A DNA stretch of 64,000 nt, taken from NCBI RefSeq assembly GCF_004342265.1, contig NZ_SMCS01000004.1:62001-126000 (forward strand), in the 5' to 3' direction. This document shows, in pieces, positions 23,563-25,289 of the stretch. Below the pieces are notes generated by a model. That model was not told where the DNA came from, did not search any database, and saw only the letters and a list, made by a program, of their open reading frames with translations. The first letter of the stretch is position 1. Each line of letters starts with the position of its first letter. The DNA is from Luteibacter rhizovicinus. GTDB lineage: Bacteria > Pseudomonadota > Gammaproteobacteria > Xanthomonadales > Rhodanobacteraceae. Made by a program: the position numbers and the translations under genes.

Positions 23563-23666
23563 GGGGCAGTCTTCTGTCTGGGTAATCCCGTTTTCAGATA
23601 CATCGGCCAGTGCCCTCCGCTGGCGGACAATTCAGGTGTCCGTCAAATCTGGACAAGCTTACACGG

Positions 23667-24132
23667 CCCCTCACCGTTGCTCCTGCGCAGGCAGCAGCCC
23701 AGTGCGGTGCATGCGGTTGTCGCGACCGCATACGATCAACTCTTCGCCGTAGCGCGGTACATCGTTAGCGCACGGCACAGAGCCTGCCGCTACCCTCGTC
23801 GCGCCCACGTCGCGCAATCACTGCCTCGTCCTTCCCGATTCACGCGCGCTCCTACCGGTCGCGACGAGGGCAGCGGCAGGCTCTTCCGGGTGTTGGGGTT
23901 TGTTGTGGGGAAGAGCGGCAGTTTTCCGCTCTCAGTAAAGCGCACGCGTTTTCGGATCAAGTCGAAAGCGTCCACTCGCCCTCACCGTCATTCCGGCGCA
24001 CGCCGGAATCCGCGGCGAGGCGGTCGGTTGTCGCGACGACCATGGTCGCTTTAAAAGCGGGAACCTCAGCGTTCGGGCTTGTCCCCGCGTGGTCGCTGCG
24101 GACCCCGGCGTACGCCGGGGTGACGGTGAGGG
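23667..24132 (+). repeat. Mosaic intergenic repeat element, copy 1
   Basis: A noncoding block that begins CCCTCACCGT and ends ACGGTGAGGG, i.e. with short terminal inverted repeats. It contains three palindromic hairpins (tcctgcgcagg-type near 23681; ttccggcgcacgccggaa at 23991-24008; ccccggcgtacgccgggg at 24103-24120). The first 270 bases (23667-23935) match the reverse complement of 24984-25262 closely, including identical runs of 26 and 34 bases. No transposase is present, so it resembles a MITE or a REP cluster. The gap 23563-24181 holds no gene otherwise. Confidence 0.8.
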
Positions 24133-24181: not shown

Positions 24182-24454
24182 TCAGGCCGCTTGAGTCGAG
24201 GCGTTTACGACATGACCTTTCTCGCGCCAGATCGCCACGACGAACTCAGCCGCCTCGTCGACCAAGCGACGCACCGACGATAGCGCCTGCGACATCGACG
24301 TCGCATCGAAATCGGTGTGTGTCGAAAGCGCCAGCTGACTCAAGATCGCCGTCGAGGCGGTAAGTCGCATCTGCGCAGCATCGTGCAACTCGTCGACGGA
24401 AAGCGCGAGGTTGCCGTGGCAAACGGGGCAGGAGGAAATGAGGGAAGAGGACAT
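24182..24454 (-). CDS. Small helical protein of unknown function under a C4-like leader
   Basis: A 90-residue cytoplasmic protein: a CPVCHGN segment near the N-terminus (one CxxC pair), then two or three amphipathic helices (ELHDAAQMRLTASTAILSQL and SMSQALSSVRRLVDEAAEF). I do not recognise a characterised family. The helix pattern recalls the small DUF3077/DUF6124 proteins of Pseudomonas, which is a weak impression. The ATG at 24454 has a GGAG site six bases upstream. The leader (24455-24652) is highly structured, and the gene is flanked by inverted repeat elements, suggesting an accessory, mobile or regulatory module. Confidence 0.6.
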   Translation of the reverse strand: MSSSLISSCPVCHGNLALSVDELHDAAQMRLTASTAILSQLALSTHTDFDATSMSQALSSVRRLVDEAAEFVVAIWREKGHVVNASTQAA

Positions 24455-24652
24455 ACACGGCTCCGCGTGACCGATGAGCCGCCACCGCGCATGACGCGAG
24501 GTGGCGGACGTGTCGGGGTAGAAAACCGGCTGCAATACCAAACCCGGCCAGGCCGAAGCCTGCCCGACACGTCCGCCATAAACACGCGGGAGTGAACGCA
24601 GGGACCGAAGTCACCTGCGTGGTATTGCAAGATCGGGTTTCTACGCCCGGCC
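24455..24652 (-). ncRNA. C4-like antisense RNA and its cis target in the leader of the 90-codon gene
   Basis: Read on the minus strand the order is a, b, a', b', start codon. Segment a (24644-24621) and a' (24539-24518) are complementary over GTAGAAA and TGCAATACC. Segment b (24577-24563) and b' (24517-24503) are perfectly complementary over 15 bases. The upstream half also has a 7-base-pair hairpin (24597-24620) and CAGGC-TTCG-GCCTG (24549-24562). b' can instead pair in the hairpin ccgccacc/ggtggcgg (24479-24507). A further hairpin, ggctc/gagcc (24459-24480), covers the ribosome-binding site. Two interleaved complementarities upstream of a start codon are the design of phage C4 antisense RNAs; this identification is inference. 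Confidence 0.5.
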
Positions 24653-24763
24653 ATCGAAAGGGTCGACGGCCCGGCAAGCATCGCAACCCCTCACCCACGC
24701 ATCCATCCGATTATTCCGAAAAATGCGTGGTAATTGTTTGAGAGTGCGATGAAGCCACACCAT

Positions 24764-25262
24764 CCCTCACCGTCATTCCTGCGCAGGCAGGAATCCAGTG
24801 CGGTGCAGTGGGTTATCGCGATAACGGTGATTCAGCACTTCCCGCAACCTCGAGGACATCGCGCTCAAGAGCGTTCCTGCGCAAGATCTGCCAAGACTGC
24901 CGAGTGACCTGAGTGCGGAAAGCCGCCGCCCACTCATCGTCACCCCGGCGTACGCCGGGGTCCGCAGCGACCACGTTGGGTAAGACTGAGAGCAGCAAAA
25001 GTCGCCGCTCTTCGCCACAACACGCCCCGCCATCCGGAAGAGCCTGTCGCTGTCCTCGTCGCGACCCGTAGGAGCGTGCGTGAGTGCGGAAGGGCGAGGC
25101 AGTGATTGCGCGACGTGGGCGCGACGAGGGCAGCGGCGGGCTCTGTGCCGTGCGTACCGATGTGCCGACGGCCGACGCTACGGCGAAGAGCTGATGAGCG
25201 TGATCGCGACAACCGCATGCACCGCACTGGGTCCCTGCCTGCGCAGGGACGACGGTGAGGGG
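24764..25262 (-). repeat. Mosaic intergenic repeat element, copy 2 (inverted relative to copy 1)
   Basis: A block with terminal inverted repeats of about 45 bases (ccctcaccgtcattcctgcg at 24764 against the reverse complement ending 25262). Internal hairpin ccccggcgtacgccgggg at 24943-24960. Its right 280 bases (24984-25262) are the inverted counterpart of 23667-23935. It fills the gap between the leader of the small gene and the autotransporter; no gene is evident in 24653-25289. Confidence 0.8.
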
Positions 25263-25289
25263 CGCGTGAGGCGCGGCGATTGATCGTCG

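Follow-up and report, generated by a model that had tools for sequence, protein, structure and literature searches.

The window, the whole stretch of 64,000 nucleotides that was analysed, holds on its minus strand a 90-codon gene (24182-24454) whose product carries a CPxC motif followed by two predicted long helices and is a member of a paralogous family. The Shine-Dalgarno sequence of this gene, GGAG (24461-24464), lies within a weak GGCTC/GAGCC hairpin (24459-24480), which is the hairpin over the ribosome site that an earlier note on this DNA had described from the sequence alone. The annotated neighbours of the unit encode SSB, DUF6630, DUF2459 and LprI proteins, an autotransporter, a dehydrogenase and an endo/exonuclease family protein. 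Among them was no phage gene, as the same note had stated, and no antirepressor gene.

C4 antisense RNA and leader architecture

Upstream of the gene, the minus strand from 24583 to 24497 matched the C4 antisense RNA family (RF01695) over the full length of the Rfam covariance model (positions 1-87 of 87). The score was 69.6 bits against a gathering cut-off of 45 bits, with an E value of 1.8e-11 for the whole window, and this was the sole Rfam family match in the 64 kb. The likeness to C4, first made by eye with this very search proposed as its check, was therefore correct.

The leader of the gene had been described as two interleaved complementary pairs in the order a-b-a'-b', and this order was found in the minus-strand sequence. 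The pair of 15 perfect bases, called b/b' in that description, corresponds to C4 helix P1. Its 5' strand, GGCGGACGTGTCGGG (24563-24577), was placed by sequence and by the covariance-model alignment, and its 3' strand, CCCGACACGTCCGCC (24503-24517), by sequence and predicted folds. P1 starts with a GG (24577). An alternative partner of the P1 3' strand, GGTGGCGG (24479-24486), was located by sequence and predicted folds. The other pair, of 9+7 bases, matches two loops of the C4 RNA with an upstream leader segment, a1b1. By loop parsing and permutation tests, loop b' (24531-24540) pairs with leader target b1, TTGCAATACCA (24620-24630), and loop a' (24517-24524) with leader target a1, GGCGTAGAAA (24638-24647). 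Both loops are copy-specific and are referred to below as the code of a copy.

Between a1b1 and C4 lies a stem-loop, ACGCAGG...CCTGCGT (24596-24620, minus strand), without a U-tract; relatives have an intrinsic terminator at this place. The leader part at 24630-24683 resembled the c4-a1b1 family (RF03163) in a covariance-model search but scored below the gathering cut-off (25.3 against 46.7 bits, E 3e-4 in 601 nt). The isrK model (RF01394) also remained below its cut-off in this leader (21.0 against 50 bits), and no U-tract was present. A putative -10-like element, GATGCT (24678-24683), was present in seven of seven aligned subfamily-1 copies. Further upstream, a conserved block, CTCTCAAACAATTACCACGCATTTTTCGGAATAATCGGATGG (24699-24745), formed in the alignment the upstream limit of homology among subfamily-1 copies. 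Compared with shuffled sequence, the folding of the leader gave a z of -5.6.

Copies of the unit and the linked small genes

The unit is not a single-locus curiosity; it belongs to a large dispersed family. The genome that holds the window (G000, here the own genome; 4.47 Mb in 22 contigs) gave 17 C4 matches, 16 of them above the cut-off, and no C4 match was found in 14 control genomes. A protein search revealed three further complete leader/C4 units, bringing the own genome to at least 20 C4 copies. These copies are nearly all dispersed and follow one layout, namely the conserved upstream block, a leader hairpin, a1b1, the stem-loop, C4 and then a gene of 77-106 codons. At one locus (L024), C4 was present without a leader target or small gene. 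At two others, L174 (G000:C14:1-2500) and L177 (G000:C3:29800-32500), the small gene was present without C4; one of these was truncated at a dispersed repeat and the other had a promoter-like region only.

The unit in the window had been placed between inverted repeats. The repeats are real, the right arm (24985-25268) being 84% identical to the left (23663-23937), but they are dispersed repeats. They were rejected as boundaries of the unit because they are found elsewhere too and the homology common to all copies stops short of them. Pieces similar to these repeats were also seen near several other subfamily-1 copies. For subfamily-2 units the upstream limit of homology is a palindrome, CTCAGACTAATCTGA, about 40-50 nt upstream of a TTGAC element. 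It was present at L009-L011, L014, L016-L018, L024, L175, L176 and L178 of the own genome, and genome-wide gave 13 forward and 14 reverse matches with at most one mismatch (a palindrome matches both strands), nearly all at these units. This palindrome is possibly an operator.

Within the genus the distribution was patchy, with 12 copies in a related species (G016), one copy in each of three genomes and none in the other 18. C4 was found in 43 of 233 genomes of the family and in 24 of 369 sampled genomes of the class. G145, G224 and G225 carried from 10 to at least 18 copies each, and at least 10 units were present in G506, which belongs to another family of the same order. According to PMC5320573, C4 had been predicted in Xanthomonadales by Weinberg et al. 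2010. In G506 (L144-L153) the b' loops were unusually long, up to about 25 nt, and the units preceded a different paralogous small-protein family. G224 (L056-L073) had at least 18 C4 units, 18 being the number of candidates scored, so that further copies are likely; several of the units stood before a paralogous family with a YSIHDVL-like motif, located farther downstream of C4.

Judged by substitution rates, the small genes are under purifying selection. The window gene gave dN/dS values of 0.12-0.20 against its four nearest relatives, and close paralogues mostly gave 0.05-0.3, with a minority of pairs higher (maximum 0.89). The low values between close paralogues indicate that the 90-codon ORF is real. 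The genes fall into two subfamilies which have in common the CPxC motif with a helical stretch after it, and one gene (L022) was without the motif. A single-sequence model of the window protein suggested two long helices at low confidence (pLDDT 65).

The product had been called unlike anything that could be named, and this held. Neither the window protein nor any of seven other downstream ORFs gave a convincing match in Pfam, NCBIfam or PHROGs. In the family scans, neither the window protein nor other downstream ORFs matched a toxin family, and a suspected likeness to the Pseudomonas DUF3077/DUF6124 small proteins received no support. Phage, plasmid and viral collections contained no relative of the window protein, nor was one detected when a genome collection was scanned for the CPxC family. 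The family of the window protein was present in only two of 233 genomes, plus one weak match.

In other genera C4 stands before yet other small proteins. A Dyella family found after C4, different from that of the window, was predicted to form a two-helix hairpin (pLDDT 79). Members of this family also occurred without C4, behind another leader, indicating that the RNA device and the gene are separable modules. In the C4-less loci (L183 and L186-L198, from Dyella and MAGs) the conserved leader was a different one, containing GCAGGATTTTTCCTGC, and a short ORF lay upstream.

Pairing of leader and C4 copy by copy

Within each genome, every leader was scored against every C4, and the sum over cognate pairs was compared with 20,000 permutations. 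For loop b, the cognate z was 9.3 in the own genome, 7.2 in G016, 11.0 in G224, 6.5 in G225, 6.1 in G145 and 6.6 in G506 (p<=5e-5 in all six). For loop a, the corresponding values were 5.5, 3.8, 5.4, 4.6, 1.9 and 5.4, the a pairing alone being less discriminating in some genomes (G145, p 0.03). When copies of the own genome were permuted within subfamilies, the z values were 3.5 and 2.8 (7 copies) and 6.3 and 4.1 (12 copies). A thermodynamic duplex score agreed, with a mean of -31.6 kcal/mol for cognate and -23.1 kcal/mol for non-cognate pairs. Each copy scored had its own a'/b' combination, in 19 of 19, 12 of 12, 18 of 18, 10 of 10, 9 of 9 and 10 of 10 copies of the six genomes.

Near-duplicates with a common b differed in a, with both sides changed to match, as seen for L020/L021 in the own genome and for L043/L044 and L045/L049 in G016. 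Since the leader and C4 are not mutually homologous, their complementarity could not survive such changes through common descent alone, and the pattern of substitutions indicates that leader-C4 pairing is maintained by compensatory change within each copy. The interaction between upstream leader and antisense RNA that the earlier note put forward is thus supported by copy-specific compensatory pairing in about 20 paralogues and several genera. The permutation tests likewise place the locus in the C4 family, in that loops a' and b' are complementary to a target pair, the upstream a1b1. That the window locus is not a product of chance follows from the folding z of -5.6, the Rfam E value and the retention of pairing in paralogous copies whose sequences differ. 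Covariation together with dN/dS ruled out a chance or decayed repeat.

A parallel in copy number is found in Acinetobacter baumannii. PMC5320573 describes Group 1 C4-like sRNAs of this species with, as here, about 20 chromosomal copies and variable a' loops; RNA-seq detected these RNAs and showed that they are cleaved, as phage C4 is, at a GG motif. There, the variability is mainly in a', and phage or unlinked bacterial targets were proposed; here, a' and b' both vary, both are matched in the copy's own leader, and a conserved small gene follows nearly every copy. Recruitment of the C4 RNAs to unlinked chromosomal mRNAs, as that source suggests for the Group 1 RNAs, would account for variable a' loops. 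It would not require the variation of a' and b' to be mirrored in the copy's own leader, and we regard it as very improbable for the present family. In the literature searched, no report was found of copy-specific, self-targeting C4 RNAs with linked small genes.

The genes on either side of the window unit are collinear in G016 and adjoin each other there, with a gap of 169 bp compared with about 1800 bp here, so the site of the window unit is empty in that species. Two pairs of loci, L009/L052 and L014/L055 (own genome/G016), were apparently syntenic on one flank and had different codes, which suggests that some C4 loci are probably old and that their codes turn over. The empty site, the dispersed and patchy copies and the uniqueness of the codes would all suit selfish or toxin-antitoxin-like units, in which each small protein would have a private C4 as its immunity RNA, with diversification mirroring phage heteroimmunity. 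In phage P1, Icd inhibits cell division (PMC8198154), and P1 and P7 are set apart by as little as 4 nt of difference in a' (as cited in PMC5320573). The family scans, however, found no known toxin family, no mobility gene was seen, and the two syntenic pairs of loci count against this reading. Such units are a minority possibility, compatible with the private feedback favoured below rather than opposed to it.

Ribosome-site target and proposed leader attenuation

The mature phage C4 is an RNA of about 77 nt, released by RNase P at a GG motif. The window unit shares with C4 of phages P1 and P7 the full-length covariance match, loops a' and b' complementary to targets, the position of C4 before a small gene in one transcript unit, and codes that differ between relatives. 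It differs from them in belonging to a chromosomal multicopy family with no phage gene beside the window copy, in having only the upstream a1b1 target, and in that its small gene encodes a CPxC protein where the phages have Icd/Ant.

The operon on which C4 acts in P1 contains icd and ant (PMC8198154), and the b' loop of C4 partly covers ribosome-binding sites (PMC5320573). By analogy, a processed C4 would repress translation of the downstream gene by acting in trans on its ribosome-binding site. The match to the C4 model is as expected for such action, as is the small gene after C4, like icd in P1 (PMC8198154). The downstream complementarity at the ribosome site (a2b2) was nevertheless absent from the window copy, with z values of -0.6 (b) and 0.7 (a). 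In phage-type loci, used as controls, the same test by contrast matched b' to both the upstream leader and the ribosome site, with z about 3-6 in most; an example of such a doubly matched b' is CTACGAAAGGAG in G493. Some phage-type loci had antirepressor-like ORFs downstream. The own genome, G016, G224, G145 and most copies of G225 and G229 kept the upstream match and had none downstream (z about 0), while a few G225 and G229 copies retained the downstream match. On this z test a P1-type downstream target was rejected for the window copy and most others of the multicopy loci, leaving translational repression of the P1 type improbable. Of the phage-C4-like action on a target suggested earlier, the upstream a1b1 pairing was supported and the ribosome-site part was not found. 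As far as sequence comparison goes, the ribosome-site target of P1 C4 is lost here, and the unit is a C4 variant that is chromosomal, multicopy, privately coded and without that target. At L163 (G493:C9:1000-4000), tandem C4 units about 350-600 nt apart had identical b' loops but differed in a', and in each case a matching a2 lay downstream.

An a1b1 leader upstream of C4 is also a feature of the c4-a1b1 and IsrK RNAs of Gifsy-type prophages. In Dyella lipolytica (L181), c4-a1b1 (62.0 bits) and isrK (51.3 bits) were both past their cut-offs and occurred together with C4, whereas in the window both models were below cut-off and the leader stem-loop had no U-tract.

Many relatives carry an intrinsic terminator between a1b1 and C4, and in these a competing hairpin has a strand with which b overlaps (the GG of GGCGC). 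When b was made unavailable in the 64 copies that have a leader terminator, the predicted probability of the terminator rose from 0.67 to 0.94. It was 0.66-0.67 when a was blocked, or when an equal-length stretch 6-18 nt upstream was blocked (p 4e-10 for the b block against the shifted control). A block between b and the terminator also raised the probability, to 0.91, as would follow if the competing hairpin were formed by that stretch. The rise on occupancy of b supports a C4 RNA, bound to its own leader, stopping transcription before C4 and the gene, and these models suggest self-directed attenuation in the wider family.

The earlier note had also envisaged an on/off switch through the second partner of the P1 3' strand. 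That partner exists, but over 30 copies the accessibility of the ribosome site did not differ consistently between the two folds (p=0.66), and a ribosome-site switch between them was rejected as a general rule. In a purely cis version, no RNA would act in trans; the nascent leader would itself alternate between the C4 fold and pairing of leader with C4, so that the ribosome site is masked in one state and open in the other. The interleaved pairing, with two competing folds 0-18 kcal/mol apart, lends itself to this, as do the second partner that the P1 strand has near the ribosome site and the window copy itself, in which the ribosome site was predicted to be freer in the cis-paired fold. Besides the lack of a consistent difference in accessibility, a cis switch gives no reason for each copy to have a different code, whereas avoidance of cross-talk between codes implies action in trans. 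We consider it unlikely; in the models, leader attenuation is a better fit to the wider family than a ribosome-site switch.

For the window copy, leader-C4 pairing was the predicted minimum free energy structure (-124.7 kcal/mol, against -118.1 kcal/mol with the C4 fold enforced). The cis-paired fold was thus predicted to be about 5-7 kcal/mol more stable than the C4 fold, and C4 might therefore rarely form in this copy.

Taken together, the window unit is postulated, with fair probability, to belong to a set of about 20 dispersed units, each with a C4-type antisense RNA that is encoded in the leader of a small gene, recognises the a1b1 of its own locus and provides private negative feedback. 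The C4 part would be released from the leader transcript, as by RNase P in phage C4, and the freed C4 would bind a1b1 of further transcripts from its own locus. This binding would disfavour read-through from the leader into C4 and the gene. Each paralogue would in this way have its private negative feedback, of a strength tracking its own output and without cross-talk. In relatives, the decision would be the predicted intrinsic termination just before C4. In the window copy and most own-genome copies the leader stem-loop is kept and the U-tract is missing, and in the window copy the last attenuation step may instead be Rho-dependent termination, altered processing, or cleavage of the duplex by RNase III. 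The CI RNA of phage P4, a small stable leader RNA linked to premature termination of its own transcript, is similar as a leader-derived RNA stopping its own transcript, and differs in serving single-copy phage immunity. The sign of the control could be the opposite, as the IsrK leader RNA of Gifsy-1, which has its own terminator with read-through, acts in trans on its read-through transcript, on which the paired region lies, and activates translation of the antirepressor gene anrP (PMC4825925).

More broadly, it seems rather more probable than its negation that some bacteria of the order carry genome-wide sets of 10-20 or more mutually distinct, self-addressed switches derived from phage C4, with the ribosome-site target lost, that drive genus-specific small-protein paralogues. 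Selection against cross-talk would have given these switches private two-part codes, and the sets would form a natural library of orthogonal RNA regulators. Synthetic biology values mutually orthogonal sets of antisense RNAs highly, and nature offers few of them; in the present case single genomes hold natural sets with up to about 20 members, in which target and antisense change together. Cross-talk between paralogues is usually studied in two-component systems or toxin-antitoxin pairs, and the C4 sets would allow one to ask how duplicated RNA regulators escape it. The C4 family may also show how a phage immunity RNA was turned into chromosomal gene control, and a family of small proteins is placed in a testable regulatory frame.
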